Source: Actinostola sp. cb2023
Taxonomy: Eukaryota > Cnidaria > Anthozoa > Actiniaria > Actinostolidae
Length of the DNA stretch: 64,000 bases
Assembly: GCA_033675265.1 (NCBI GenBank)
Contig: JAUJYZ010000798.1
Coordinates: forward strand, 1 to 64,000
Direction of reading: 5' to 3'
Part shown: piece after piece, positions 23,704 to 54,710 of the stretch
How positions within the stretch are numbered: the stretch's first letter is position 1
Layout: the number at the start of each line of letters is the position of its first letter
Program-made: the position numbers and the translations under genes
The notes under the pieces: model-generated
What the model saw: the letters and a program-made list of their open reading frames with translations, nothing else
What the model was told of the DNA's origin: nothing
The model's database searches: none

Positions 23704-24356
23704 AGACACAAATATCATTTTATTGAATTATTAAATAGCCTCAAAAGCAATGGTTGGACTGCCTGTGGTATATCCTGCGCATGACAGTGACCTCAAAAGT
23801 ACCTTTACAAGAAAGTTCTGTAATTTTCTTGTGTTATTTGCTTAGATTTCGTGTAATACTATTTTAAATCAAGGAAAATTGGGATGGAGGTTTAGAAGCC
23901 ATTTACAGCATTCGCGGCGTCCGTGTTGCATCTGAGATATAGATCCTCGCCTACGGCTGTATCTGATCTTGGCTGACAAGATGGTGTACACATTTCTATA
24001 CTATTTTCATTACTGAAAAACTTCGTGAAATATTAACGGGTGCGAATCAGGAGTCTTATTTCCCGCGGGAGTGTTTGTTTAGATTACCCTGCATCGCCAC
24101 GTCCTTTTAGCCGCGTATTTAAGAACCAAAGTATTCAATTTCGGGGCATTTCGACACGATCTTCTACAAGGACGGTTAAAAGATTTTTCCGACCCTCCCA
24201 CCTCCCCTTCGGCGACGCCGTTACTCGATCTACTTACTTCCTGTACGTACGTCGCTTCGCGCTTCGCTCATTGCCTCGGTCCAATCTCATTCTCCCATAA
24301 CTTAATCGCACCGAGACAATGAGCGGAGATTTTAGTAGTGAAAATGGTATACTATT
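23704..24356. other. Non-coding, scraps of Ig exon
   Basis: No intact gene. 23955-24004 repeats about 45 bp of the Ig exon end at 24497-24757 (TATCTGATCTTGGCTGACAA). 24200-24330 contains GCGCTTCGCTCATTGCCTCG and its inverse-like partner ACCGAGACAATGAGCG. Confidence 0.5.
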
Positions 24357-24620
24357 AACTTACATTGTACAGTAACTTGTATACTGGTCATAGCATCACT
24401 TAGTATTCCATTATTAGCTGTACACTTGTATGTCCCTGTATCTGATCTCTTGGCTGACAAGATGGTGTACACATTTCTATACTATAATTAACTTACATTG
24501 TACAGTAACTTGTATACTGGTCATAGCATCACTTAGTATTCCATTACTAGCTGTACACTTGTATGTCCCTGTATCTGATCTGTTGACTGACAAGATGGTG
24601 TACATATTTCCTATATTGGG
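24357..24620. repeat. 133-bp tandem duplication of an Ig exon's donor end
   Basis: 24357-24489 repeats the 3' part of the Ig exon (24490-24620) with its splice donor: both copies start AACTTACATTGTACAGTAAC. The duplicated part lacks the exon's acceptor, so it is a partial exon downstream of the real donor. It parallels the 66-bp donor array of the previous exon. Confidence 0.8.
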
Positions 24621-25726: not shown

Positions 25727-25796
25727 TTAACTTTGAAAAGGGCACGGGTTTTTTAACATTCATTATTACATTCTCATCATCAGGACTTTTACTTAC

Positions 25797-26066
25797 ATTT
25801 GACTGTCACATAAGCATGTTCTGTTTTTGTATATTTTTGTCCACCATAAACATTATTTGCTGTACAGATGTACTTGCCAGCATCAGACTTGTTTGCATTA
25901 GGGATTGTTAATGTATCATCAGATATCGTATGTCCAGTAAGTACATTATTCGCTCTAGACCAGGTCCTGGAAGGCTGTGGATTACCTGATGCCTGACATT
26001 TTAGTATGATGACATCACCTTGTGTGACTGTAGTGTTATCAGGTGAGGTGGTGATGTCTGGTGGAT
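25797..26066 (-). CDS. Receptor gene 2: I-set Ig exon
   Basis: A phase 1-1 exon (acceptor gtgcag, donor AAAT|gtaagt). It encodes PPDITTSPDNTTVTQGDVII, LKCQASG (B-strand Cys), RTWSR (C-strand Trp) and KSDAGKYICTANN (F-strand Cys). Closely similar to the gene 1 exon at 49773-50048, so it is the paralogous third domain. The T left by the upstream exon completes a Tyr codon, giving the YPPDI boundary typical of linked I-set domains. That supports the splice between this exon and the one at 35542, now separated by about 9.5 kb because of the array and the BEL insertion. Confidence 0.9.
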
Positions 26067-26539
26067 CTGCACACGGTTAAATTGATAGGATGAAGCAATA
26101 ATTTGTAACTTATTTATATGATCCATTTTTAAATTAGCAGCATTTACTCCAATCTGCAGATTGGTTCCCTGCAACACTGATTTAAAAACATTTAGTCACG
26201 AGATTCAAGCATGGCTGTAGGATTCGACAGGACAAAGATTGTCCATCAAACAATAAACAGACGCCGTTTTTGTTCGTAACTGTGTCCCGTTTTGGAGAAC
26301 TTTCGACTTGGCTGACAACATATGTTGCCATAGAAATACGTTTGATTGACGTCAACCAAGTTAATTCACTTCTGGCCCGCGACGTTCTATCGCCAACCTG
26401 CACGTGTAACTAAGAATGGCTGTAATTTGCTAATGGTCCGCATCCATAAGGCATTGCAAAATAATTCAGAGCGCTCTGATAGGTCGAGCAGCGTTCGTGA
26501 AACTCAACATAGCACGGAACGTTGCCATAACAACTTAAA
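26067..26539 (-). other. Intron of gene 2
   Basis: No gene recognised. The minus-strand frame at 26182-26403 lacks splice sites and motifs. Confidence 0.45.
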
Positions 26540-27235
26540 CCATGATAAGAAATTTTGTTTCTTCCACGTTATTTTATTTTTGGCAAGCTTTCGCACTATA
26601 AGTACATCTTCAGGGCTGAAGTATTGTGACAATAAATTCAAATAATAACTAAAGACTATATGCGCGCGCGAATTGCGTTGCTAGGAAAGGACCAATAAGA
26701 GAGTACAGAATCCTTCGTGTTTACACGAAACCTAAACGAACCTAACAGAAATAGAGCGCGCTGTAGAAAAAACTAAAGCGCGAGCAAAATAACCGAGGAC
26801 TACGTATGTACAATTTAAACCAATAAAAAGGACATAAGACATATTGATAAGTAAGTAACAAAATAAGAAAGAATAAAATAGAGAACTGCAAAAATGTCTT
26901 CGATTATTGGCTCATAACTAGGTGGGATTGTTCTACCGTTATCTCTATCAAATGTGACGTTATTGTTTTTAGCTATGAGGCAAGCCTCATTCCACTTTCT
27001 TTGATGCCATCTATGCTCATTAGCCAAGATCTTGGTGGCTTCCCATGCAACATTGTGGTCAGTCGTGTTACAATGTTCCGCTAAAGCAGAAGTCTCAACC
27101 TTGGCTAACCGGACACTGGCCTAATGTTCTTTCGTGCTGGTGGACAATGATCTTCCTGTCTCACCAATGTAGACCAGGTCACAGTCAGAACAAGTTGGTT
27201 TACATTGTACATACGTAGTCCAGAGGCGCTTTACA
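26540..27235 (-). pseudogene. Penelope-like element remnant, GIY-YIG endonuclease
   Basis: Reading leftwards from about 27230, the frame gives CDLVYIGETGRSL (the GIY-YIG signature with its downstream Arg), then after an in-frame stop LAEHCNTTDHNVAWE and HRWHQRKWNEACLI. This is the C-terminal endonuclease of Penelope-like retroelements, which nicks target DNA. The reverse transcriptase is absent. At 26578-26625 the phrase CAAGCTTTCGCACTATAAGT, then CATCTTCAGGGCTGAAG, resembles Penelope 3' ends. Dead fragment. Confidence 0.6.
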
Positions 27236-27239
27236 ATCT

Positions 27240-27366
27240 ATTAAACTATTATTATTATTATTAGTAGTAGTAGTATTAGTATTAGTATTATTAGTATTAT
27301 TGTGATGTACTTGGATATTGCAAGAAGAATTGAGAAGCTAGTGTCGAGAAGTATTCATAGTCCGTA
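27240..27366. other. ATT/AGT microsatellite before the 66-bp array
   Basis: Degenerate TTA/GTA triplet repeat at 27246-27302, then short unique sequence to the array. Confidence 0.7.
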
Positions 27367-28563
27367 GTAACCATGGCATAAGACCTACAAACCATAAAAC
27401 TAACCCATTCAGTATCATACTTACAATATACAGTCATGAACCACGGTATAAGACCTACAGACCATAAAATTATCCCATTCAGTATCATACTTACAATATA
27501 CAGTAACCACGGTATAAGACCTACAGACCATAAAACTAACCCATTCAGTGTCATACTTACAATATACAGTAACCACGGAATAAGACCTACAGACCATAAA
27601 ATTATCCCATTCAGTATCATACTTACAATATACAGTAACCACGGTATAAGACCTACAGACCATAAAATTATCCCATTCAGTATCATACTTACAATATACA
27701 GTAACCACGGTATAAGACCTACAGACCATAAAGCTAACCCATTCAGTGTCATACTTACAATATACAGTAACCACGGTATAAGACCTACAGACCATAAAGC
27801 TAACCCATTCAGTGTCATACTTACAATATACAGTAACCACGGTATAAGACCTACAGACCATAAAGCTAACCCATTCAGTGTCATATTTACAATATACAGT
27901 AACCACGGTATAAGACCTACAGACCATAAAACTAACCCATTCAGTATCATACTTACAATATACAGTAACCACGGAATAAGACCTACAGACCATAAAATTA
28001 TCCCATTCAGTATCATACTTACAATATACAGTAACCACGGTATAAGACCTACAGACCATAAAGCTAACCCATTCAGTGTCATACTTACAATATACAGTAA
28101 CCACGGTATAAGACCTACAGACCATAAAACTAACCCATTCAGTTTCATACTTACAATATACAGTAACCACGGTATAAGACCTACAGACCATAAAACTAAC
28201 CCATTCATTGTCATACTTACAATATACAGTAACCACGGTATAAGACCTACAGACTATAAAACTAACCCATTCAGTGTCATACTTACAATATACAGTAACC
28301 ACGGTATAAGACCTACAGACCATAAAACTAACCCATTGAGTATCATACTTACAATATACAGTAACCACGAAATAAGACCTACAGACTATAAAACTAACCC
28401 ATTCAGTATCATACTTACAATATACAGTAACCACGGTATAAGACCTACAGACTATAAAACTAACCCATTCAGTATCATACTTACAATATACAGTAACCAC
28501 GAAATAAGACCTACAGACCATAAAATTATCCCATTGAGTATCATACTTACAATATACAGTAAC
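27367..28563 (-). repeat. 66-bp splice-donor array of gene 2, part 1 (about 18 units)
   Basis: Each unit on the minus strand reads GGTTACTGTATATT|GTAAGT then ATGATACTGAATGGGTTAG and TTTTATGGTCTGTAGGTC, TTATACCGT. The vertical bar marks the splice donor of the adjacent Ig exon, which ends CGTATATT|GTAAGTATG. Nearly all units retain GTAAGT, with scattered substitutions at other positions. Since 66 = 3 x 22, three reading frames stay open along the whole array, producing spurious long frames. The array continues beyond the BEL insertion at 35141-35541. Confidence 0.95.
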
Positions 28564-28783
28564 TGTTCTGACTCTTAGTTGTAACCTGATAGCCAGCAGT
28601 TTAACCATGGAAGTATTCTCGTTAATTTCTCACTTTATTAAATTCGTTCCGAAAGGTAAAAAAAGAGTGCTCTCTACGAGCGAAGCAAACTAACTCGTCA
28701 AACGTGCCAAAAAGCACGAGTTTACAAAAAGTTGACAAATAGCGCGAATCGGCAACCTAAGGGGGGAGGGGAGAGACATCACA
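28564..28783 (-). repeat. BEL/Pao 3' LTR
   Basis: 220 bp, TG..CA, 3' LTR in element orientation. A purine stretch (GGCGAGGAG on the minus strand) precedes it and may be the polypurine tract. Confidence 0.9.
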
Positions 28784-28832
28784 CTCCTCGCCTGGTACAA
28801 TGTACCACTATATCAACTATAATATATAACTG

Positions 28833-31800
28833 TTACTGTCCAAGCTCGAGGTCTCTTCGCGTCTTTAGTAGGACGACCTCGGTTATGGGTCTTGTGTAGA
28901 CTCTCTGTGTTCCTTCTGTCGCTGTCATCAGCTCCACCTTGCGGACTTTGCCATCAGCAGCTTTAAACACTTGTGTAATCCGAGCCATTGGCCAACAATT
29001 TCTGGCGACTTCCTTGTCACGAAGGAGAACCAAGTCTCCCACTTGTAGGTTGGGGCTTTCGTAGTGCCACTTCTGTCTCTCTTGCAAGGTGTGGATATAT
29101 TCTCTCCTCCATCTTGCCCAGAACTGGTTAGCCAGTTGTTGTACTTGTCGCCATTGCTTGCTGTGGAGGTCCTTACTGTCAAAGTCACCGGGAGCAGCTT
29201 TCATCGTTCGCGGTTTTAGTGTTAGGATGGTGGATGGTGTAAGAACTTCTGGTGCCGTAGGGTCACAAGAAACAGGTACCAGGGGCCTTCCATTGACTAT
29301 GGCTGATATTTCTGCCATCAGTGTTGTTAGGACTTCATGAGTGATATATTTGGCTGCAACTGTAGTGAGCATGGAGTCAAGAATCCTTCTTACTACTCCA
29401 ATCATGCGTTCCCAGACACCACCCGCATGGGATGCGTGTGGAGGGTTGAAGACCCACTCACAGTTCTCTGTAGCTAAATAATCGTGAACTGCTTTGACCG
29501 CTTGACCTTTCTGCAGTTCGTTGAAGGCTCCCACGAAGTTAGATCCGCGATCAGAACGCAGCTGAATTGCCGGTCCTCGCGATCGTAAGGCTAAAAACCT
29601 CCTCATTGCGTTAATGAAGCAAGAGGTGTCCATGGACTCGATTACTTCTATATGGATGGCTCTAGTTGTTAGACAAGTAAATATCACTGCCCATCGTTTG
29701 CTGTGGGCTAAACCACCTCTTGTGCGTCTTGCAACCACTTCCCACGGTCCAAACACGTCCAGCCCCACATAAGTAAAGGGTGGTGATGGGGTCAAGCGTT
29801 CCGCCGGTAGGTCAGCCATCAGTTGTTGCTGTACTTGTCCTCTCAGCTTCTTGCACTTTACACACTTGTCTATGATGCTGTTTACGAGTCGTCTGACTCC
29901 GACGATCCAAAAGCCACTACTTCTAATTATGCCGAGGGTAAAGTGTCGTCCTTGGTGCTGTACCTTTGTGTGTAGATGCTTGACCAGTAGGATGGTGGCG
30001 TGATGAGAGCTTGGAAGGATAATTGGATGACACTCTTCATCAGTGAGGTCTGTGGCTTTGTCCAAGCGACCACCTACAACAGGAGGCCATCAGCACTGAT
30101 AGTAGGGTTGAGCTTCAGCAGGGTGCTGTTCCTTGGTAACTTCTTGCCCGTCGACAGACACTGCATCTCTTCCTTGTAGGATTCTTGTTGGATGTTTCTG
30201 AAGATTGTTATACTCGCCTTTTCCATAGTGCGTGCTTTCGAACTTGTCTTTTGTGTTTGAACGTTGGTGTCTTTGTGCCATAGCCTTGCAACCGTTATGA
30301 TCTTGGAGACCGCTCTCACTAATGATGGCCAGCCAGAGAACCTGGTGAATCTCCCCGTACCGAGGTCGGCTTGCTTCGACCCCACTTCTGTAGCTAAGAC
30401 TTGTACCTGTGGACGAACTTCAGGGTCATCATCTGGGATCTGCTGTACCATACTTTTTAGCTGTGTGTCCGCTTGTAGGTCGTGCATGTGGAGGAAATCT
30501 GGTCCACTGTGCCAGATTGTATTTGGAAGCCTGCCAGCTTCTATGGGTCTGGTTGCTACGTCAGCAGGGTTAAGGTTTGTGGATACGTAGCGCCATTAAT
30601 TGTTCTGGGGTTGACGACTTTCTTATCTGTTCGACACGGTTACTCACATAGACATAGAAACGACGGGTTTCGTTGCTTAAATAGCCAAGGACGACTCGGC
30701 TGTCTGTATAGTAGGTCACACTGTCAGGGCACACATCCAACTCCTCGGTGATCAGCAAGGTGATTTCTGTAGCTAGGACTGCTGCACATAATTCCAGACG
30801 AGGGGATGGTCGTTGCTCGGGTTGGGGCCAGCTTAGCCTTGCCAAGTATGAAGGAGACATCTACATGGCCGTTAGGCCACACGACTCTCAGATAAGAGAC
30901 TGCTGCAATAGAGTCACTGGACGCATCGCCAAATGTGTGGATCTCTTTTCGGGTTGCTGTTGTAAGGGCTTTGCTTGTGTAGGACCGTTGTACCTTGAGG
31001 TCTGTCAGGCCATCGAGAGAACTGCGCCATGCTTCCCAGGCTTTCTTGTACTCTTTTGGGAGTGGCTCATCCCAGTCTTGTGGTTTCAGGTTTGACGTCA
31101 TAGCTCGCAAAAATGCTTTACCTCTGATCACAACTGGTGCGACAAGACCCAGGTGGTCATACAGGCTGTTCACGACTGATAGCACTCCCCGCCGTGTGAA
31201 GGGCTTCTCTTCTACTTCTGTAGAAACTTTGAATGTGAAGTCGTCAGTCTTCAAGTCCCAAGACACACCAAGCGATCTCTGTACCGGAACTGCGTCCTTG
31301 CTTAGGTCCAGGTCGCGAAGATCAGACGCTTGGTCTTCACTTGGAAAGGTTTCCATGACTTCCTGGCGGTTCGACGCTATCTTGTGAAGGCGCAAGTTTG
31401 CTGTGGACAGCATGGATTGTGTTCGGTGTAGTAAATCAACAGCGTCTTCTACAGTAGGAACGGATTTGAGGGCATCATCAACGTAGAAGTTTCTATTCAC
31501 TAAATCTGCAGCGTCTGGACCAAAGTTAGCCTTCAGCTGTCTTTCTTAGACCGTAAGTGGCGACTGCGGGCGATGATGTGCTCCCGAATATGTGTACCTT
31601 CATCCTGTATTCTAGGATATCCTTCCCTGGGTTGTTGTCTTGGTACCATAGGAACTTTAGGTAATTCCTGTGGTTTTCTTGGACCGAGAACGAGTAAAAC
31701 ATCTGTTCCACGTCAGCCATGAAAGCTACGGGGCTCTCACGGAAGCGCAAGAGGATGCCAATCAGACTGTTTGTTAGATCTGGTCCAGGCAGGAGAAGGC

Positions 31801-32838
31801 TGTTTAATGACACTTCACCACATTCAGCAGCCGCTTCATAGACAATACGAACCTTGTTGGGTTTCTGGGGGTTATAAACCCCGAAGTGTGGCAAATACCA
31901 GCCAGGCTTGGTTGTAGCAACTTCATCAAGTGGGACGACTTCTGCATGGCCGTGGTCCAGAAGGCTTTGCATGAATGTGAAATAGTGTTTCTTCATTTCT
32001 GGTTGATTTGAGACGTCTTACCGCCAGTTCTCGACTGTTAGGGAGTTGCGTTATCTCTTCACGGAAGGGTAGAGGGGCTATCCAATTTCCGACGCTGTTC
32101 TTGGTCATTCCGTGCTCCATTATGCTGATGAATTTCCTGTCTTCAATAGAGGTTCCTAGCTTGTCGTCTTCCTTTGTTGTTGAAAAGATGTTTGTCCCAA
32201 GTCCGTCCATGAATTTTCCATTGACAAAGTTTTCCTTCTTTTGGCTGTTGTTACCTGCTACTGGACTGTTCTTCAGATGGAAGTGATTGGGACATGGTTG
32301 AAAGTGCGAGGGTCGACCGTTGAGTAAGATGTTTGTTGAACAGGTAGAGATATTGTCTGGCACATGCGTACTGTCTAGGCAAGCATTTCCAATGACCACC
32401 CACCCTAGATCAAGCCGTTGGGCCCATAGGGCGTTCCTTGGGCCATTACGTGACTCGCGGACCCTGTGAATGGCGGGTACATCTCGACCAATTAACAGGA
32501 GGACTTCGGTATCCGGCTGCGTCGAACTCTGGTATCTTGTTTGCAATGGAGCGGAGATGAGCGTATGCTTGGGCTACATCAGGTGTAGGTATCTCTTCCT
32601 TGCTGTCAGGTATAGCATCGCACTCTGTTATTGTCGGAAGGCTGTGGTTTGAGCTGCCGTTTAAAGACTCAAGAATCAGTCCATTAGCTCGTATTCCTTT
32701 GGTGTGGCTCACTCCAGTGCAAGTTTTCAGTGTGTATGCAGTTGCTTCTCCTTTACTGAACTCCCAGTGCGTTAAAAACCTTTGATCTTGTTTTCCGGGC
32801 GACTTGTGTGATAGACGTATGATGGACATATCTTGCAA
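28833..32838 (-). pseudogene. BEL/Pao pol, frameshifted
   Basis: Order from the right: protease-region remnant with YTLKTCTG, without the catalytic D-x-Q triplet I expected (apparently deleted near 32780). Then RT: KPNKVRIVYEAAAE, FMADVEQMF, and the catalytic FYVDDALKS at about 31480. Then RNase H-like YYTDSRVVLGYL. Finally the integrase, with H-x3-H..C-x2-C zinc finger, LDVFGPW, LRSDRGSNFVGA and GGVWERMIG carrying the D,D,E residues, and a C-terminal DUF5641-like VGDLVLLRDK. The integrase frame (30065-28833, 410 aa) is intact. Frame changes near 32500, 31990, 31510, 30850, 30480 and 30070 break the polyprotein. Confidence 0.9.
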
Positions 32839-34842
32839 CAGGATCGAGCACCTTTTCGGTTTTTACAGACTTCAGTGCATGTAGTCGTTACGTTGATCAG
32901 CTCTTGGTTTTGTTTGTCTGAGGCCTTTGGCTCCTCGCCATTCTTTTGCTGGGTAGCGTATGGTTCAGAGTGCAGGGCTGTGATATGATCTTCACTCTGA
33001 CACTCGTCACAGTGGATCGACTCCTCGCAATCCCTCGCAATGTGGCCACGTGTTGCAGCGCACCGGAAGCATACTCGTTCTCGTTTTAGTAGATTTCTTC
33101 TTTCTTCTAAGGGTTTCGCTCTGAAAACTCTGCATTTAGTGAGTGGGTGTGGTCGCCTATGGATGAAACACCATCTCTTTGGTTCCTCGGGTGCCGAAGA
33201 GGGATGTTCCACAGCAGAGGATGAGTCTGTCATGTCCGTTTTAATGGTCGTAACTCCTTGTCTTGTGGTGCGGGAGTTTTGCCTGTTGACGGCTCTCGTA
33301 GGACGCACGGTTTCCTCGTCGGCTGTTTCTAACGTTAAGAAGGGGTCGTTTCTTTCTTGAGCAATATCCTGAACAAACTCTGACAGTACAGCAAATGCAA
33401 AGGGAGGGTAGTCTACGGTGTTATTGACTTTGTAGCGGTAGGCGTGTCGCTGCCATCTTCTTTGGAGATCGTCAGGTAATTTCTCTACTATTGGTCTTAA
33501 ATACGTCGGTTCGTCTAGAATCCCGAGCCCTCCTCCGTTTTTGGCGCACTCCAACTCTAGTAGTAGATCTCCGAGTTCTTGCAGCTTTATGTTGTCTTTT
33601 CCTCCTATCTTTGGGAACACGTTGAGCTTGTTCAAATGGACATTCGTTATTACTGCGTCTGATCCAAATCTCTCGCACAGTTTTCTCCAAGTTTCTTTGA
33701 CTCATTCGTCGGGGTTTTCTATGTAGGCATTTCTAAGTCTTTGGACGAGTTTTTTCGACTCTCTCGTCGTGTACTCTGCCAATAGAGAGAGTTCTTCGCT
33801 AGCTGTTATGTTGATGTCTCGGATCATGCTCTTGAATGTCGCTTTCCAGGTCCTGAAATTTTCTGGCTGGTCGTCGAACTTCTCAACTTTGTTAGAAATA
33901 ACCTCCCGTCTTGCCATGAACTGGATATACGATTCCACAGTTGTTTTATCTGTAGTGGGTTGATTTATTTGTGCTCCGTTGCTAACGAGCAGCTCAGAAA
34001 TTTTGTGGTTGCTAGGGGGCACTTGAATGGCTTCCCGTGCCTCATGATGTGGTTGGGCGCAGAGATAATCAATGACTCTCTGTTTTGAATCTATTTCTGG
34101 TAGATTAGGTCCTTCTGAACTGGTATTTTCGTCTTTATAACCACACTCATCTTCAATGGCAGTAAGTCTGGCTTGAGCTATAGCCACTTCTTTCTTTGTC
34201 CAGTACTAGGCTCTGAAGCCGTATTTCTTCGTCTCTTTTCATCTTAGCTAACGTCTCTTGCTCTTCTCTCAACTTTTTTCCTTGTTCTTCCAACTTTTTT
34301 CTCGACTCATTTTCTATCTGAACTTTCTTTGTATGCATCTCTGCTTTCTTTAACGCTGCAGCGGCGTCGGCCTTCGCTTGGGCACGGATTGCAGAAGTTG
34401 ACGATGTTGAGGACGTGTGCGAAACGTACGAGCGGTTTGAACCTAATTCCTGCAAGAGATCATTTTTACACGCCATAGCATCGTTAATAGCTGTTGAAAC
34501 AAATTCTTTACGGTTTCTCATAAATCCGTCGATAATATCAGCATCTTCTTGGCATTCTTTGACATTTACTGAAGCTATAAACTCTACTAGCGATTGATGA
34601 GTGTTTTCAAAATCAACAAAGACAAAGCGTACGTCGTTGATGGCCGTACGAATTAGATCAACTGAGTCGGTTGTTTTCCTTAGAATCTCAATGGAAGTTT
34701 TCGTCTTATTCCATGCCACTTCTAACTTAGATCTACCTTCTTGTATAAGGTTTTCGATGACCTTCAGTGTTGGCTTCTTGTTTCTCTTTTCGTCGTGTTT
34801 GAATCCCTCAGTTTCGGCTTGCTGTGCGTCGGTGTCGCTCAT
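32772..34842 (-). pseudogene. BEL/Pao gag, frameshifted
   Basis: Starts MSDTDAQQAETEGF at 34842. A Lys/Glu-rich coiled-coil segment follows (about residues 140-220), then the DUF1759-like gag core (FRTWKATFKSMI, LRNAYIENPDE) in another frame. Last come the zinc knuckles (CFIHRRPHPLTKC and CFRCAATRGHIARDC, about 33120-33010). Gag forms the particle and binds genomic RNA. Frames shift near 34170 and 33690, and the segment ends at a stop at 32772, where the protease should begin. Confidence 0.85.
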
Positions 34843-34925
34843 CGCCGGTATTGAATTTGGCTTCGTTTACGACTTTTCTCCGCGTTGACGATGCTTGAAT
34901 TCGTAGTTTTGAGCTCTTTTTTTAC

Positions 34926-35140
34926 TGTTCTGACTCTTAGTTGTAACCTGATAGCCAGCAGTTTAACCATGGAAGTATTCTCGATAATTTCTCACTTTAT
35001 TCGTTACGAAAGGTAAAAAAAGAGTGCTCTCTACGAGCGAAGCAAACTAACTCGTCAAACGTGCCAAAAAGCACGAGTTTACAAAAAGTTGACAAATAGC
35101 GCGAATCGCCAACCTAAGGGGGGAGGGGAGAGACATCACA
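34926..35140 (-). repeat. BEL/Pao 5' LTR
   Basis: 215 bp, 5' LTR in element orientation. Compared with its partner it lacks 5 bp (near 35003) and differs at about three bases. Confidence 0.9.
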
Positions 35141-35541
35141 GTAACCACGGTATAAGACCTACAGACCATAAAACTAACCCATTCAGTATCATACTTACAA
35201 TATACAGTCATGAACCACGGTATAAGACCTACAGACTATAAAACTAACCCATTATATTCAGTATCATACTTACAATATACAGTCATGAACCACGGTATAA
35301 GACCTACAGTCTATAAAACTAACCCATTCAGTATCATACTTACAATATACAGTAACCTTGGTATAAGACCTACAGACCATAAAACTAACCCATTCAGTAT
35401 CATACTTACAATATACAGTAACCACGGTATAAGACCTACAGACCATAAAACTAACCCATTCAGTATCATACTTACAATATACAGTAACCTTGGTATAAGA
35501 CCTACAGACCATAAAACTAACCCATTCAGTATCATACTTAC
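35141..35541 (-). repeat. 66-bp splice-donor array of gene 2, part 2 (about 6 units)
   Basis: Directly continuous with the Ig exon ending at 35542: the exon's own donor is the first of the series. Two units carry a few extra bases (around 35210 and 35250). The exon's frame reads on through all units without a stop until the BEL boundary, giving units like CKYDTEWVSFMVCRSYT. Confidence 0.95.
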
Positions 35542-35817
35542 AATATACGAAAACCTCTGTTTGCGCAGTAACTGGATTCTGGTTTGGGTTGTTGACTGCC
35601 TGACACTCGTACGTCCCATTCTGATCTCTTTTAATGTTTGGTATACTTAGTGTAGCACTCCCTACTCCTTGAGTTATGGGAACCTTGGTAACACCTTGTA
35701 CTTGTACCCACGTGATATTTGGTGTTGGGGGACCAACCGCTGAACAGCTGATGCTCAAGCCCGAGTGCTCATTGATTGTTGTTGATGCATTTGGACGTAC
35801 TGTTAAAGTTGGGGTTT
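35542..35817 (-). CDS. Receptor gene 2: I-set Ig exon with donor array
   Basis: A phase 1-1 exon (acceptor ctttgtacag, donor TATATT|gtaagt). Domain: ETPTLTVRPN, LSISCSAVG (B Cys), ITWVQVQG (C Trp), RDQNGTYECQAV (F Cys). About 88% identical in protein to the gene 1 exon at 54435-54710. The exon end is immediately followed by the 66-bp array repeating its donor. Failure to use the first donor would extend the domain by 22 residues per unit without shifting frame. Confidence 0.92.
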
Positions 35818-35922
35818 CTGTACAAAGTATCAATTAAATTAGTAAGCGAAATAACATATTTATTTAGTTTAGTGATCGATACTGATGACTCTGGTTTTAT
35901 GAATACTTTAATATCAACAAAC

Positions 35923-36293
35923 CTGTAACGATAAGCTGTGTTTTATTTGTAATTGGGTCTCCACTATTTAATACCAGATTGCATCCATACATTCCATTAT
36001 CAGCTGTGGTTACACCAGTGATGACCAAAGTAGCTTTTGACGCTTTACTTACTCGTACTTTTAACCGAGGTGGACAAGTGCTTGCAACCGCCCATACCCG
36101 CGGTACATTCCCTGCGTATTGATCATATGCGATAGTCGTTCTAGTAGAATCATAAAAGTCCCATGTTGGTGATTGAAAACTCAACTCTGTGTTGATGTTA
36201 TCTACGTGGTAGTCCCACACAAACCTTGCAGTTTCTCCTTTTAATACGTACAGTTTATTGGAAGGGACTTGAGTGAATCGAGCTGCTGCATCT
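35923..36293 (-). CDS. Receptor gene 2: V-type Ig exon
   Basis: A phase 1-1 exon. It begins DAAARFTQVPSNKLYVLKGE and contains ETARFVWDYHVDNIN, STCPPRLKVRVS, TLVITGVTTADNGMYGC and QLIVTG. The B-strand position normally held by Cys is Phe (ARFVW). Cysteines occur in STCP and in the F strand (YGC), suggesting a non-standard disulfide. The first 95 bp of the exon are identical to the gene 1 V exon, while the middle is very different. The donor is GTTTGT, weaker than the others. Likely the membrane-distal ligand-binding domain. Confidence 0.9.
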
Positions 36294-36579
36294 ATACAGA
36301 AAAAGAGTATTTAAACAAGTTATTGATGTCGGTTGCCGTGACTTTGTTGATGAGCAGCTTTCTCTTGCTTTACTTTTACCAATATACAACCTACCCCTCA
36401 CTGTTGAGGATGTTGTGGTCAGGCAGGCGTTACACAGTCATTGAATATACATACATATAAATAAATAAAGCTTTCAGAGTGAGTTCGCCTCAGCTCGTTG
36501 CACGTTTTACCGGACGTAGATAATTTCATTATTTGCATAACAATAGAATCTGGAAGAATCTATTGTATTATTCGTCGTT
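36294..36579 (-). other. Intron of gene 2
   Basis: No gene or recognised repeat. This is the beginning of the intron between the signal exon (41890) and the V exon. Confidence 0.5.
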
Positions 36580-43625: not shown

Positions 43626-44571
43626 TATTAATGCAGTATTTATTTATGACATTTTTTAGTGTATTTTTAGAATAGCTGACTCAGATAATATTTTATAAGT
43701 AAATTAATTTATAACTTAATTATTATTATTGTATATATTTGTAAAGCACTTTTGGTCTTTTTTAGGAAAGGACGCTATATAAAATTAATATTATTATTAT
43801 TGATTATTATTATAGTGTGGGCCTGTCGAGTCAATAATAATAATAATCTACTACGAAAAGCGTGTTTGTATGTGACATGAACATATTTCTTTCCTTCGAC
43901 TGAGTAATCTTGAAACTCGATACAAACAAATTAATACTCCTGAAACCCGATACGAACAAATACTTCGCATTTTGTGGCCTACGAAAAAAAAAAGAAATCC
44001 CATTTTATAACTCGGGCTTTCACCGGAAGTGCCCGAGTAATTAACGAATCACTTGTCACTGAGCAATAGACACGTACCAAATTAGGACTAAAGACTAATT
44101 AGTGGCAACATTAGATGATCGAAAGGCATTTGTACAGGAAGTGACTAGTATAATAAAACTCAATGCTATCCCATCTATTGTCTACAGTTTCTACTCAATG
44201 CTATCCCATCTATATAGTCTACAGTTTCTATACTCAATACTATCCCATCTATAGTCTACAGTTTCTACTCAATGCTATCCCATCTATAGTCTACAGTTTC
44301 TACTCAATGCTATCCCATCAGTTATAGTCTACAGTTTCTACTCAATGCTATCCCATCTATAGTCTACAGTTTCTACTCAATGCTATCCCATCTATAGTCT
44401 ACAGTTTCTACTCAATGCATCCCATCTATAGTCTACAGTTTCTACTCAATGCTATCCCATCTATAGTCTACAGTTTCTACTCAATGCTATCAGCCCATCT
44501 ATAGTCTACAGTTTCTACTCAATACTATCCCATCTATAGTCTACAGTTTCTACTCAATGCTATCCCATCTA

Positions 44572-45122
44572 TTCTTGGCTTTCACCTACGTCATCGAACA
44601 TTTTCCCAGGACTTATATAGAACAAAACCTTCATAGGCCGAAAGAGCAGCCAAAACCATATATCTCAGCAAAAGTTTTAGTTAAAAGACGTTTTAGATAT
44701 GAAGATATGAGCGATCGCTTATGCTCATAATTTAGTTAAAATGTATGGGTCCGCCATGTTGGTGTCGCATCGAGCGACACCAACATGGCGGCCAAATCAC
44801 GAAGACTGAAAATCATGTTTATTTGCAAATACTTCAAGTTTTCAATAGCTATATTCATCAAAATAAAGTTACCCATCATCTACTAAGTTAAAATCGTATT
44901 ATTTCAAACGAATTTTCCTATTTCTATGGCTTTTGAAAATGCGTGACTGTATTGCGTGACAGAATTTGACTCGCAATAAAACGAAAACCAAACATCTAAA
45001 TTACAAAATTATTTTGGTAAGAATTTTCTTATAACGATATAAACAACATATCCAACAAACAGTTTTGTGAGGTGAATAGTTTGGATTTTAGCTTTTTGAT
45101 GACGTCATGTGAAAGCCAAGAA
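44572..45122. mobile_element. TA-flanked MITE with TTCTTGGCTTTCAC ends
   Basis: A 551-bp element with inverted ends TTCTTGGCTTTCAC.TACGTCATC and GATGACGTCATGTGAAAGCCAAGAA, and TA on both sides. Removing it plus one TA restores a perfect 35-bp repeat unit, so the boundaries are exact. TA duplication suggests Tc1/mariner. It has no ORF and contains an 18-bp-arm perfect hairpin at 44751-44791. Confidence 0.9.
44751..44791. repeat. Perfect 18-bp-arm hairpin
   Basis: CCGCCATGTTGGTGTCGC, loop ATCGA, exact inverse. The arm contains GCCATGTTG, close to a YY1-type site, on both strands. Confidence 0.95.
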
Positions 45123-45385
45123 TAGTCTACAGTTTCTACTCAATACTATCCCATCTATAGTCTACAGTTTCTACTCAATGCTATCCCATCTATAGTCTAC
45201 AGTTTCTACTCAATGCTATCCCATCTATAGTCTACAGTTTCTACTCAATGCTATCCCATCTATAGTCTACAGTTTCTACTCAATGATATCCCATCTATAG
45301 TCTACAGTTTCTACTCAATGCTATCCCATCTATAGTCTACAGGTTATATTACTCAATGCTATCCCATCTATAGTCTACAGTTTCT

Positions 45386-46679
45386 ACTGGTGCTAATAAA
45401 ATATCCCTGGTGTTTGTGTCCTCACTTGTCAACTTTATTGTGTTGTCGCTCTTTTACATTTATTAACGTGTTTTACTTTCGATATTTTCATGGTTCAACA
45501 CTGACATACTTAATGTTTCTAGTGAATTGTGTTACTTTGTTTTCATACCAAAAGAATACGTCAAAACTCGAAGGTCAAACCATACAACACTGGGGTGAAG
45601 TTTCTCATTAGCATATTGTATGACTGAGTCAGCAAGAGAGCTGCTTCAGTTAGTAAAATTGCTCTTTCGTTTCTTTCTCTCGGTTTTCGTGGTGGATATC
45701 CTCTGGTTGACGAGGATTGATTATGATGACTTGGGGCTGTAGTTTGGTTCTTGTTGTGGTTCAGTATTGCTTCATGTAGTTTGGTTTGGTTTTCTCCTGT
45801 AGGTACGGTATGTTCTCATCATTGGAACTCATTACCTTGTTGAATAAGTTATTTGCTGTGTGATATAACGGGCCGTTCACACTTGGATCATTTTGGATCC
45901 GGATCCGAGATCGATCCGAGATCGATCCGAGATCGACCCGAGCTCCGTTTTCGAGAACGTTCACACTATAAACATGTATAAACGTACCACACACAAAAAA
46001 ACAGGTAGCCCAACCAAAACCGGGTGCCGAATTAAATTAAAAATCTAAGGGGTTGGGATCGAGCAGGGACATTAAAGGGCCACATTAAAGATAGCGGATT
46101 TAGTTCCACTTTGATTTCTCATGAAATCAATAAACGAATTATAGCTATTATTGAGACGTCAAAGCCGTAAATCCAAGAACCATTTTCAATTAATATTGCG
46201 TTTTATGCGTCAGAGAAATCTTCAACAGAAAATGTATTTTATGACACTCAATGACGGAAGTCTATTATGGGCGGTCAATAACAGAAATAGAGTTCTGGCG
46301 AGAACCAACCACAGGTTAGCTTTGCCTTCAGTAGAATGAGATGTGAATACAATAGTTACAAAATAAGAGAGAACAGGTTTTATCCAAGATGTGCTGACCT
46401 AGATTTCAGGCAAAGAAAAATAAACTTTCACATTCATTCTTATCAAACTTATTGCCATAACTGAACTAAAGATATTTAACAATTGACTACACTTTCTATA
46501 GTTTGTAGTAAGAACGATGATTTTCTGGATCAGCATAATACGACTGCTGCCTGTGTTGTTGGTATCGAGCTTCAGCTTGAGGCACATGGCGACCAGTAGT
46601 GGCACTTGCCAATATAGCAATCGAGTCATTCTGGACCTTCATTTCTTGTTTTCTTAGGTCAGTATTAAGACGTACTGTT
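45386..46679. other. Downstream of gene 1: probable 3' UTR and intergenic
   Basis: No gene that I can defend. 45760-45870 has overlapping open frames on the minus strand (one containing NNLFNKVMSSNDENIPYLQ) that might be UTR or a lost exon. 45874-45970 is a fragment of the GTTCACACT element family. Confidence 0.35.
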
Positions 46680-49563: not shown

Positions 49564-49772
49564 CTGATAAACAGATCAATGAGTATTCAGTTTGTTCAAA
49601 TTGACTACAAATCAGGACCATAATAAATCATTACACATGAAATATGCCTGTGTTAAACCAACTTGATACGATTTCGTTCGAGTAGCTCGATCATGTAGTT
49701 CCGTTATCTACATTGCACATTTTTAATATGGTAATAAATAATACTAATATATAATATTATTTTGTTACATAC
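49564..49772 (-). other. Short intron of gene 1
   Basis: 209-bp intron, acceptor gtttatcag and donor gtatgt. Confidence 0.85.
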
Positions 49773-50048
49773 ATTTGACTATCACATAAGCATGTGCTGT
49801 TTTTGTATATTTTTGTCCACCATAAACATTCTTTGCTGTACAGATGTACTTGCCAGCATCAGACTTGACTGCATTAGGGATTGTTAATGTACCATCAGAT
49901 ATCGTATGTCCAGGTTTTATAGGTACATTATTCGCTCTTGACCAGGAAATAGAGACAGGTGGATTACCTGATGCCTGACATGTTAGTATGATGACATCAC
50001 CTTGTGTGACTGTAGTGTTATCAGGTGAGGTGGTGATGTCTGGTGGAT
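49773..50048 (-). CDS. Receptor gene 1: I-set Ig exon
   Basis: A phase 1-1 exon (acceptor cattttag... in minus orientation, donor AAAT|gtatgt). PPDITTSPDNTTVTQGDVII, LTCQASG, SISWSR, KSDAGKYICTAKN. Paralogous to the gene 2 exon at 25797-26066, mostly differing around the C-C' region. Third Ig domain of gene 1. Confidence 0.92.
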
Positions 50049-50185
50049 CTAAATGTAAAATACAAGACTGAATATAACTTCGTCCACCAGTTTGTCAAGC
50101 GGGTAAGTTAATGAAGAGTAAAACGAAAGCAAGAAGCAAACGGTCAAGTGGGACTTTTAGCTACAGCTAGTGGCTATATTCAGTA

Positions 50186-50215
50186 ATGTATCATACTTAC
50201 AATATACAGTAACCA
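50186..50215 (-). repeat. 66-bp unit remnant left of the GGGATCCC element
   Basis: 30 bp of the 66-bp unit, including the donor GTAAGTATG (minus strand). It continues exactly at 54051 once the inserted element is removed. Confidence 0.9.
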
Positions 50216-50226
50216 CCCAGGTAAAA

Positions 50227-51260
50227 ATGAGAGGCGGGATCCCGCCAATCCCAGCCGGGATCCCACCCGGGATTGCCGGGATCCCACCTCTTTTGGCGGG
50301 ATCCCAGCTATCCCGGCCGGGATGACAAAAAGATCCCAACTGGGATCCCACCTCTGAGCCGGGATCCCACCCGGGATTGCCTGGATCCCACCTCTTTTGG
50401 CGGGATCCCAGCTATCCCGGCCGGGATGACAAAAAGATCCCAACTGGGATCCCACCTCTGAGCCGGGATCCCACCCGGGATTGCCGGGATCCCACCTCTT
50501 TTGGCGGGATCCCAGCTATCCCGGCCGGGATGACAAAAAGATCCCAACTGGGATCCCACCTCTGAGTTGGGACAGTAGTGAATATTGCCGGGATCCCACC
50601 TCTGAAGGCGGGATCCCACCTATCCCGGCCGGGATGACAAAAAGATCCCAACTGGGATCCCACCTCTGAGTTGGGACAGTAGTGAATATTGCCGGGATCC
50701 CACCTCTGAAGGCGGGATCCCACCTATCCCGGCCGGGATGACAAAAAGATCCCAACTGGGATCCCACCTCTGAGTTGGGACAGTAGTGAATATTGCCGGG
50801 ATCCCACCTCTGTTGGCGGGATCCCACCTATCTCGGGTGGGATGACATCAATATCCCAACTGGGATCCCACCTCTGGAGTTGGGACAGTAGTCAATATTG
50901 CCGGGATGCTAGATTGGGGGCGGGATCCCACCTATCCCGGCTGGGATGACATCAATATCCCAACTGGGATCCCCCACCTCTGGACTTTGGACAGTAGTCA
51001 ATATTGCCGGGATGCTAGATTGGGGGCGGGATCCCACCTATCCCGGCTGGGATGACATCAATATCCCAACTGGGATCCCACCTCTGGACTTTGGACAGTA
51101 GTCAATATTGCCGGGATGCTAGATTGGGGGCGGGATCCCACCTATCCCGGCTGGGATGACATCAATATCCCAACTCAGGGATCCCACCTCTGGATTTGGG
51201 ACAGCCATTATATCCCAGGTAGGATGTAAGATCCCACCTACATGTATCCCAGCTCAATCC
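50227..51260. repeat. Left GGGATCCC array, 104- to 116-bp units
   Basis: Seven to nine units. The first (from 50273) repeat every 104 bp with TATCCCGGCCGGGATGAC and AAAAGATCCCAACTGGGATC. Later ones change to CAGTAGTCAATATTGCCGGG and AGATTGGGGGCGGGATCC with about 116-bp spacing. Dense overlapping palindromes (GGGATCCC, CCCGGCCGGG). Open frames here are repeat artefacts. Confidence 0.9.
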
Positions 51261-53309
51261 CATCTCTGGAATTGGAAGCGTGAAAACTAAAAAGGGCATT
51301 AACAATTTGAAATTATAATGGGATGGATGTGTTAAAATTGATTACACAATAAATTATTACACTTGTATTTATTAGTGAAAATTATAAGTGACTACCATGA
51401 TTTTAGATAACCACGCTTTGATTCCCTGAGCACCTTTGTGAACTGTACAGAACATATGCAACAACAACAACATTTATTTAAATAATTTATTTGAGTCAAA
51501 AACTTGCATATATTGAGTCATTTACATGTGAGCCAGCTTGCACATAAAAATTACAATGAAATCATATTTCATGATGGAAGTTCAAATAAGATAAAATATT
51601 ATTGTTTAAAGATTCCAATTAACTCTTTCAGTTGACAAAAGAGTTATCAAATGCTTAGATAAAGCTTACCTTATTACCCTGATACACTACTGGATAACAA
51701 CCTGTGAAAAACCTGTGGATTTATTTATTAAAAAAACCCTGCTAAAGCAAAGTTTTGCCAAAATGAAAACATTATAAAATATTTTATGAAACATATATAT
51801 TACACTTATATGTAATATATAATATATATATATAATAAAAATCTTTGAAAAAGCATTTGCACAATAACCTGATAAAAATACAAGTCAATCCCCAGAAGAA
51901 CATGAGTACTATATGTCTATGAGTAAAATATAATTTGCCATCTCAAAATCAATCAATATCAAACTCAGAACACATTTTAACATAACTATATCAGTTTTAA
52001 TATCAAACTCAGAACACATTTTAACATAACTATATCAGTTTTAATACACTCTTTTGTGATGACCAAATCTCAAAAAGGCCAGTGTTTGAGAAAACTATGC
52101 ACTTGAACACCAACAAACTAAGATTTGGGAATTAATTTATTTAAAATAGATTAGTCAAACACCCTTCAGACATTCAGTCTACTCACTTTGCAGTTCGTTT
52201 TTCTGGATTTTTTCAATATTTTCTGCTATGTAACTTTGGACTTCTTATTCTTGGGAACACAGAAGATATTTTTACATAGATTTGCTCTTGGTATTTTTGG
52301 TTGATTTAGACGAAAGCTTTGATTTACCAAACACAAATTAACAGAACACTGCCATTTTGAACAGCACACATAATGGTCAGCAGTCATCGATCACATGACT
52401 AAAATACGGCTGTTGATTGGTCCGTGGCGGGCGCGCACGCGTTTGCAGATTGAGCGGGAAAAACGAAAACTTGCTTCAGTTTGCAGAGTTTGTAGGAGTT
52501 TGTCAAGAAACTTGGGGTTTTTATTCATTATCATGCTGGTAAGTAAAGATTGTTCAGCTATTTTTGAAGTAAATATTACAGGTAAAACAGCTTAGCAAGC
52601 TTCTACATGTCTTTCAGGCACATTGGAAGAGAAAAACTTGGATAAAACGACTTGTTATAAAACAAGCATGCAAAGACAGCTCTACTCTAGCAAATCTGTA
52701 AGTAAGCTAAAGCTTAAACCTTTTTTAAATAAGATAAAAAGTTCAGATAAATGCAGTTCACTGACTTACTTTAACACTTACACTCAGTTAGAGTTTGGAT
52801 TGATTCAGATTTCATATTTAATAGTTATTTACTCGCATATACTGCAGATTAAAGTGAGTGATTTAGGATTTAGGTAAGTTATTTGCCATTGCCAGATGCA
52901 TGACTGTTTAAAAATGTCTTGTTCACATCAAACTCTTTTAGACTATAGCTTTAATATGGCCTAATTGAATGACTGTTTTTATTGATTATTGTCTATTTAG
53001 TTTCAGGTATTAATTCTTCTTCAACAAGCTAATAAAGCTAATGAAAGATTTGGTTACCAGCATTGTTAGCCTGACAAAATGTGGTAGACAGAAAAGCTAA
53101 GTTCAACACTTTGATTAGTCAACAACTGCATAATGTAAAGCATAGATAAAATATTGATAATTACATGTATTACAAGAATGTTTGATGTTGGTAAGGTTGC
53201 ATTAAATGTCTCTACAGTCTGACAATGAAACAACATTTTTATCCATCGATCATGTTGCTATCAGATTTATTCCTTAATTATTTATTACATATTTACAAAT
53301 AATATTGGT

Positions 53310-54000
53310 GGTGGGATGGTGGTGGGAATATTCAGGTGGGATACTGGTTGGGATGCCTTGCATTGGGCACATGGTGGGATCCAAGGTGGGATACCTTGGG
53401 CCCATGGTGAATCCCGGCTGGTAATGGTGGGATCCCGGCTGGTAATGGTGGGATCCCGGCTGGTAATGGTGGGATCCCGGCTGGTAATGGTGCCGGGGAT
53501 CCCGGCTGGGATAGTGGGATCCTGGGATCCCGGCTGGGATATCTAATAATCCCGGCTGGGAGGATGGGCTCCTGGTTGGGATGGTGGGATCCCGGCTGGG
53601 ATGGTGGGATCCCGGCTGGGATGGTGGGATCCTGGGATCCCGGCTGGGATGTCTAATAATCCCGGCTGGGATGTCTAATAATCCCGGCTGGGATGGTGGG
53701 ATCCCGGCTGGGATGGTGGGATCCTGGGATCCCGGCTGGGATGTCTAATAATCCCGGCTGGGATGGTGGGATCCCGGCTGGGACGGTGGGATCCCGGCTG
53801 GGATGGTGGGATCCCGGCTGGGATGGTGGGATCCTGGGATCCCGGCTGGGATGTCTAATAATCCCGGCTGGGATGGTGGGATCCCGGCTGGGATGGTGGG
53901 ATCCCGGCTGGGATGGTGGGATCCCACCTGGGGTGGGATGTCTAATAATCCCAGCCGGGATCCCACCTTATCCCAGCTGGGATCCCATCTACAAAAAAGC
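53310..54000. repeat. Right GGGATCCC array, 20-bp units
   Basis: Units GGGATCCCGGCTGGGATGGT repeated many times, with ATGTCTAATAATCCCGGCTG variants. Same motif as the left array but a much shorter period. Confidence 0.9.
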
Positions 54001-54050
54001 CGGGATCCCGGCTGGGATTGGCGGGATCCCGCCTCTCATTTTTACCTGGG

Positions 54051-54434
54051 CACGGTATAAGACCTACAGACCATAAAACTAACCCATTCAGTATCGTACT
54101 TACAATATACAGTAACCACCGGTATAAGACCTACAGACCATAAAACTAACCCATTCAGTATCATACTTACAATATACAGTAACCACGGTATAAGACCTAC
54201 AGACCATAAAACTAACCCATTCAGTATCATACTTACAATATACAGTAACCTTGGTATAAGACCTACAGACCATAAAACTAACCCATTCAGTATCATACTT
54301 ACAATATACAGTAACCACGGTATAAGACCTACAGACCATAAAACTAACCCATTCAGTATCATACTTACAATATACAGTAACCTTGGTATAAGACCTACAG
54401 ACCATAAAACTAACCCATTCAGTATCATACTTAC
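54051..54434 (-). repeat. 66-bp splice-donor array of gene 1 (about 6 units)
   Basis: Immediately follows (minus strand) the Ig exon at 54435-54710, whose donor TATATT|GTAAGT is the first in the series. Units are nearly identical to those in gene 2, including an alternation between CCACGGTATAAG and CCTTGGTATAAG types seen in both genes. Confidence 0.95.
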
Positions 54435-54710
54435 AATATACGATAACCTTTGCTTGCGCAGTAACTGGATTCTGGTTTGGGTTGTTGACTGCCTGACACT
54501 TGTACGTCCCATTCTGATCTCTTTTAATGTTTGGTATACTTAGTGTAGCACTCCCTACTCCTTGAGTTATGGAAACCTTGGTAACACCTTGCACTTGTAC
54601 CCACGTGACATTTGGTGTTGGAGGACCAACCGCTGAACAGCTGATCCTCAAGTCTGAGTGTTCATTGAATGTTGTCGATGGATTTGGACGTACTGTGAAA
54701 GTCGGGGTTT
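54435..54710 (-). CDS. Receptor gene 1: I-set Ig exon with donor array
   Basis: A phase 1-1 exon (acceptor ttgtacag, donor TATATT|gtaagt). ETPTFTVRPNPSTT, LRISCSAVG (B Cys), VTWVQVQG (C Trp), RDQNGTYKCQAVNNPNQNP (F Cys). The last T with AT of the next exon gives the YPPDI boundary. The frame stays open through the array for another 100 or so codons. Second Ig domain of gene 1. Confidence 0.92.

Follow-up and report, generated by a model that had tools for sequence, protein, structure and literature searches.

What does a row of near-identical splice donors behind an exon do: lengthen the protein, recruit the splicing machinery along the intron, or simply record the growth of a repeat? The question is raised by the minus strand of the window analyzed here, the first 64,000 nucleotides of contig C371 of the sea anemone Actinostola sp. 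cb2023, where an immunoglobulin (Ig)-type gene (gene 2) and its paralogue (gene 1) each carry an array of donors at the end of exon 2. The reading that we prefer, with a probability of about 0.65, is that the array is an intronic minisatellite that was born by tandem duplication across the junction of exon 2 and intron 2 and that is for the most part neutral, influencing splicing weakly if at all.

Structure of the donor arrays

The donor array of gene 2 is real and unusual. The exons and arrays of the two genes are as follows.

35923..36310, minus strand: gene 2 exon 1 (V-set-like) and upstream open frame, donor 35922; Pfam V-set 5.6e-05, below the curated cut-off
35542..35817, minus strand: gene 2 exon 2, an I-set-like Ig exon of 276 nt with phase 1-1; the frame 35833-35273 matches Pfam Ig_3 (8.8e-13); AG 35819-35818, GT 35541
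35141..35541, minus strand: gene 2 array, proximal part, six donors (35541, 35475, 35409, 35343, 35273, 35198), the first four in phase
27367..28563, minus strand: gene 2 array, distal part, 18 donors, none in phase with exon 2
25790..26067, minus strand: gene 2 exon 3 (Ig), its 3' end placed approximately; 85% identity to gene 1 exon 3, acceptor seen
54435..54710, minus strand: gene 1 (paralogue) exon 2 (Ig)
54051..54434, minus strand: gene 1 donor array, six donors, five in phase
50185..50215, minus strand: gene 1 remnant unit with the seventh donor (50200)
49768..50048, minus strand: gene 1 exon 3 (Ig); Pfam Ig_3 4.6e-20, acceptor

The initial annotation had described about 24 donor units in tandem from the end of the Ig exon, and the count bears this out. 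Gene 2 has 24 donors of the form GTAA(G/A)TATG, each preceded by TATATT; the first coincides with the donor of Ig exon 2, and together they fall into a block of 6 (35541-35198) and a block of 18 (28550-27424) with a BEL-like element between them; the first TATATT-GTAAGTATG of the array is exon 2's own end. The spacing is mostly 66 bp, with 70 bp (twice) and 75 bp also found. A perfect GTAAGTATG is present in 23 of the 24, the sole variant being GTAAATATG at 27890. With up to two mismatches allowed, the window contains TATATTGTAAGTATG 32 times where shuffles predict 0.44, and Tandem Repeats Finder recovers both blocks. The paralogous array of gene 1, which the initial annotation had overlooked, follows the Ig exon at 54710-54435 on the same strand and consists of six donors, an element flanked by terminal inverted repeats (TIRs) and the seventh donor at 50200.

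Each unit combines a copy of the exon end, a donor complementary to U1 and about 50 nt of intron. Pairing of the array donors with U1 spans positions +1 to +8 with a duplex energy of -8.0 kcal/mol, jointly the strongest among the five exon donors compared, and the variant donor of gene 2 reaches -1.8 kcal/mol. No RNA family was found at the gathering threshold in 27000-36400. Elsewhere in the window, two arrays that share one 35-bp unit lie about 550 bp apart (44158-44572 and 45122-45388), and an open frame at 47182-46805, which may belong to gene 1, resembles a cytoplasmic tail with the motifs YQQL, YEPL, and YQPL, which we take to be reminiscent of ITAM-like tails.

Insertions within the arrays

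Both arrays of the window carry transposon insertions.

28564..35140, minus strand: BEL-like LTR element inside one gene 2 unit, in gene-sense orientation; LTRs at about 35140-34924 and 28783-28564; AATAAA at 35001 and 28639
50216..54050, minus strand: element in the gene 1 array, flanked by TIRs and dense in tandem GGGATCCC repeats; 2-bp target duplication

The LTRs of the BEL-like element are 96.4% identical, its target duplication is the 5-bp GTTAC, and its domains include DUF5641 (4.2e-29) along with integrase matches under the Pfam cut-off. DUF5641 and a 5-bp target duplication are presumably marks of BEL, and together with the LTRs they uphold the earlier call of a BEL insertion in the array, an assignment to BEL/Pao. 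Once the element and the GTTAC duplication are removed, donors 35198 and 28550 stand exactly 66 bp apart; removal of the TIR element and its 2-bp duplication from gene 1 leaves 66 bp to donor 50200. The sense-oriented AATAAA of the LTR at 35001 lies 197 nt beyond the sixth donor of gene 2.

Distribution in the genome

The genome searched comprises 424,152,321 bases in 1594 contigs. A 31-base piece of the unit had 669 matches at up to two mismatches, and its reversed control had 0. By protein search of the genome, at least 21 close copies of exon 2 (85 to 100% identity) were found, in addition to a 57% relative on C1331 and a pseudogene on C1079; the 21 are a lower bound because 150 of 1246 first-look candidates were scored. 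An array is present in 16 of these 21 close copies, one of which (C1494_101) is without the 5' part of exon 2, and it starts at the exon-2 donor in all 16. The number of donors ranges from 2 to at least 229, and the largest array (C1278) has 229 perfect TATATT-GTAAGTATG sites across 16.7 kb, lengths that assume correct assembly. Exon 3 was located in ten of the genes; there, the array makes up 0.80 to 1.00 of intron 2 in seven, including C1278_160 with poorly aligning units and a share of 1.00, and 0.08 to 0.17 in three, to which both window genes belong.

Four copies (C991_95, C699, C1154_119, and C991_44) showed no units and no further TATATTGTAA within the approximately 1.5 kb seen past the donor. 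They keep the donor, as GTAAGTATG in the first three and GTAAGTACA in C991_44, and then continue into a different intron. C809, which has GTGAGT, about 18 nt of unit-like sequence, and a lone TATATTGTAA about 1.4 kb further on, was counted neither as an array nor as clean array-less. The array-less C699 encodes P0001, which NCBI lists for Actinostola sp. cb2023; this protein equals the exon-2 translation in 91 of 91 residues and leaves the exon at VIVY, which is the donor of the array family. According to the excerpted text of PMC10803348, gene prediction in Actinostola sp. used homology and de novo methods, so that transcripts are not necessarily the basis of the P0001 model.

Units without any Ig exon had been named in the initial annotation as evidence that would speak against a role for the array. 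Three arrays have no detected exon 2: C238, with three units and none of exons 1 to 3 found; C592 (418-424 kb), with exon 1 upstream; and C1379, which is only perhaps exon-less because it lies near the contig end and exon 2 may lie beyond. Such units were found nowhere else. Viral and prokaryote contigs, a set that may omit records of the genome studied here, gave 0 exact matches to a 25-base piece of the unit.

Reading frame and coding potential

The initial annotation had held that every later donor adds a multiple of 66 nt with phase unchanged and that the exon frame runs through the array without a stop. Both statements fail in gene 2. With the spacings of 70 and 75 bp, the donors extend the exon by 0, 66, 132, 198, 268, and 343 nt (the last two leaving a remainder of 1 on division by three) and then by 6991 nt and more, and the exon 2 frame reaches a stop at 35270-35272, after the fourth unit. 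Only the first four donors are in phase, so that the frame is preserved at 3 of the 23 donors after the first, and all 18 donors past the BEL-like element are out of phase even with the element subtracted. A 3' splice site that had been suggested within the unit would yield a frame-breaking microexon of 26 nt. The proposed graded exon extender is anatomically possible for the first units, but the array evolves without coding constraint and in gene 2 the frame is soon lost.

We consider it unlikely that donors beyond the first are used at functional levels, adding 22, 44, 66, or more residues after the Ig domain with two cysteines per unit, in the way that IFI6 uses its downstream repeats. Such an extender could draw on the strong U1 pairing of the donors and on the two or more open donors that 13 of the 16 array genes have in frame (counting the first, 4 in gene 2, 5 in gene 1, and 1 to 9 across all 16), and the IFI6 case is a precedent. 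Unit lengths that break the frame are also less frequent in units 1 to 3 than later (3/36 against 71/420, p = 0.24). The same arrays nevertheless have a stop in the first unit in 3 of 16 genes (C885, C1260_176, and C1278_160) and lose the frame internally in 8 of 12 exon-linked cases, at donor 2 to 10, the remaining four having 3 to 8 donors. Furthermore, four paralogues are without units, and no protein of the unit type scored at E <= 0.001 among 2131 candidates.

No coding constraint was seen in stops, substitutions, or indels. The 230 distinct gene-position-base events in about 469 units of 13 arrays comprised 57 synonymous, 160 nonsynonymous, and 13 stop changes, with expected fractions of.197,.742, and.061 (synonymous, p = 0.056; stop, p = 1.0); stops therefore arise at the expected rate, which again argues against the extender. 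Among indels, 23 of 279 are divisible by three, a count that includes the poorly aligned C1278_160. The purifying selection on frame that marks a protein-coding repeat, with few stops and with indels in threes, is thus absent. Substitution rates at codon positions 1, 2, and 3 are 0.0155, 0.0212, and 0.0241, and position 3 falls to 0.0127 without unit position 11; it is the fastest of the three with that position and the slowest without it, which counts against our preferred reading. The consensus unit is open in two of three frames on the gene strand and in one on the opposite strand, which is weak evidence because a given frame was free of stops in 778 of 5000 shuffled units. A coding role of the whole array is rejected on account of the loss of frame, the stops at the expected rate, and the indels that do not come in threes.

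Conservation of the donor

The initial annotation had named a lack of constraint on GTAAGT relative to other unit positions among the signs that would speak against a role. Variation is indeed lower at the donors of exon-linked arrays, but the difference is weak when independent events are counted, and we regard donor constraint, as read from these comparisons, as suggestive at best. These tests, like the substitution and unit-length tests above, exclude the pseudogene on C1079 and the poorly aligning C1278_160 (17.7% mismatch once aligned). Inside the 23 window units no donor constraint is visible, 30 of the 66 six-base windows being equally conserved. Pooling of 13 arrays puts the donor window first of 66 in conservation; once every gene counts equally, the donor windows of 6, 8, and 9 bases rank 3, 10, and 8 of 66. 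Base-matched permutations, with the first unit of each array dropped, yielded p = 0.027 for rates and p = 0.13 for events.

In 15 exon-linked arrays, also with the first unit dropped, donor bases +1 to +8 differ in 13 of 3135 cases (0.41%) against 1.46% elsewhere without position 11 and 1.85% with it. The ratio of donor to rest is about 0.28 (base-matched permutation, p = 0.018 by rate), and by events the figures are 13 of 173 and 8 of 88, with a permutation p of 0.17. The donor window varies more than the windows that begin at 65, 66, and 56, and it ranks 12 of 66 once the two giant arrays are removed. The three exon-less arrays pooled have 29 donor changes in 1088 (2.67%) against 2.72% elsewhere, a ratio of about 0.98. 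The contrast between exon-linked and exon-less arrays has a Fisher p of 2.5e-4 on the assumption of independent units, which the units are not, and another test of it gave p = 0.15. C1379 supplies 19 of the 29 exon-less changes in the form of two spread variants, one in 15 units and one in 4, that lie at +7 and +8, outside GTAAGT; without it, p = 0.26. No donor variant has spread in the exon-linked arrays.

These observations bear on a platform for U1 binding or decoy donors, in which U1 would be drawn to intron 2 by its numerous 5' splice sites and would prevent premature polyadenylation or stabilize the choice of donor, also in the face of the sense LTR poly(A) signal at 35001. Such a role is conceivable because U1 silences proximal poly(A) sites, an effect that the excerpted literature treats as established, and it would fit the AATAAA positions at 35001 and 28639, the lower donor variation of the 15 exon-linked arrays compared with the three exon-less arrays pooled, and the confinement of spread variants to C1379. 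We nonetheless hold it to be improbable: the contrast hinges on an array whose exon 2 may lie past the contig end, the signal is weak by events and falls to the ranks of 12 (giants removed) and 10 (equal gene weight) of 66, and four paralogues have no visible array. That selection keeps the tandem donors functional in exon-linked arrays, with intron 2 as a tract that attracts U1 to as many as hundreds of sites, is likewise a long shot. If this were true, the tract would tune donor choice and shield the long intron and the poly(A) signals inserted in it, and donor-dead units would be barred from spreading in exon-linked arrays and free to spread in detached ones.

Probable origin of the array and possible exchange between paralogues

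Our preferred explanation, the minisatellite born at the junction of exon 2 and intron 2, draws on where the arrays begin and on what their units resemble. An origin by junction duplication is indicated because every one of the 16 exon-linked arrays begins at the exon-2 donor and unit ends resemble the exon end: the last 24 exon bases match two unit variants at 17 and 15 positions in gene 1 and at 16 and 16 in gene 2. The array peptide TVVTVYC is the exon-2 end of the relatives P0002 to P0005, and the exons 2 of the window end in VFVY and VIVY, unlike the TVVTVYC of the common unit. Since VTVYCKY also terminates the more distant Ig sequences P0006 and P0009, the VTVYC-type motif is not peculiar to this family. 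In P0002, a relative on a JGI contig, EVGTEVGTEVG stands right after the same donor position and is perhaps a separate short repeat at a homologous place. A further reason for a junction origin is that gene 2 has duplicated another Ig-exon end together with its donor:

24354..24615, minus strand: 133-bp unit in two copies, donors 24496 and 24363

This separate duplication adds 133 nt, which is not a multiple of three, and has an in-frame stop.

The junction duplication would have arisen in an expanding family of sea anemone Ig-type genes, after which the array would have grown and shrunk between 2 and at least 229 donors until it took up nearly the entire intron 2 in many genes. Splicing would take place mostly at the first donor or the first few donors; donors 2 to 4 in gene 2 or 2 to 5 in gene 1 could occasionally extend the exon in frame by 22 residues per unit, and donors further on would be silent or yield frameshifted transcripts. 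Use of the first donor is suggested because the array-less C699 is annotated (P0001) with that donor, and the array is probably largely neutral because coding constraint is absent and both window arrays carry insertions. Two further observations count against this explanation, namely the lower donor variation in exon-linked arrays and an identity between the two window arrays. Over their first 229 bp, genes 1 and 2 have no array difference at all, against 17 differences at the 276 sites of exon 2 (Fisher p = 5e-5). The simplest account would be concerted exchange between arrays, with selection as an alternative.

Exons and arrays also appear, from their sequences, to have exchanged partners, because C1494_101 has a unit-type exon end and the exon 2 of C1154_55 groups with array-less copies (node support, 0.69 to 0.91) yet is joined to an array. 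The copies of exon 1 (C371, C1260, C1278, and C592) form two classes about 14 to 21% apart that do not track the distances of exon 2 and exon 3, as if exons had reassorted among paralogues. It is very improbable that the arrays serve as homology tracts promoting the exchange of Ig exons between paralogues, as the two cases just named and the lack of correlation between distances measured on exon 2 and on exon 3 (Mantel r = -0.29 for 10 paralogues) would allow, because exon 1 is equally uncorrelated with exon 2 (9 paralogues; r = 0.12, p = 0.31), with no such array between them in the window genes, and with exon 3 (8 paralogues; r = 0.13, p = 0.24), while the exons have few informative sites; exon shuffling specific to the array is therefore unsupported.

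Comparison with known systems

Human IFI6 (6-16, G1P3), reportedly described by Turri, Cuin, and Porter in 1995, is said to have an array of 26 copies of a 12-nt unit close to where exon 2 ends. An array that starts at the exon's own donor is the defining trait of that case, and it is what was found in 16 of the 21 close copies; a good 5' splice site in every unit, the other mark of the IFI6 type, is seen in the 23 of 24 perfect donors of gene 2 and in the U1 duplex energies. As far as the excerpted account of the IFI6 minisatellite goes, two downstream repeat units serve as donors (PMC4526556), so that an extender mode is feasible, and in both systems the repeat units each supply a splice donor. 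In contrast to IFI6, the Actinostola unit is 66 nt long, reaches at least 229 copies, and recurs behind most of the close exon copies, and its use of later donors is putative.

Tandem duplication models of intron gain, in the excerpted text of PMC4974935, include AGGT duplication, the potato RdRp gene, and 24-bp units in fission yeasts; there, too, short intragenic tandem duplications multiply or create splice signals, whereas the Actinostola array enlarges an existing intron and multiplies its donor. The intronic variable-number tandem repeats (VNTRs) of ABCA7 and TERT intron 6 are of variable length and linked to splicing, but their excerpted descriptions, which are the basis of this comparison, are without donor-built arrays from an exon edge. 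A literature search for donor arrays gave nothing closer than IFI6; PMC12771815 and a prawn lectin paper (PMC7536079), in the parts excerpted, describe other things. The Actinostola array is thus of the donor-minisatellite kind already known from IFI6, and it extends far beyond the single gene 2 locus.

Implications

The Ig and fibronectin domains suggest that these genes encode cell-surface receptors, and for this reason even modest isoform variation could matter. A single genome holds at least 16 related introns after the same exon, with 2 to at least 229 near-identical 5' splice sites about 66 nt apart. Four paralogues that have nearly the same donor and in which no units were seen complete a natural dosage series, which addresses how the spliceosome chooses among equal donors and whether an array of donors affects polyadenylation.
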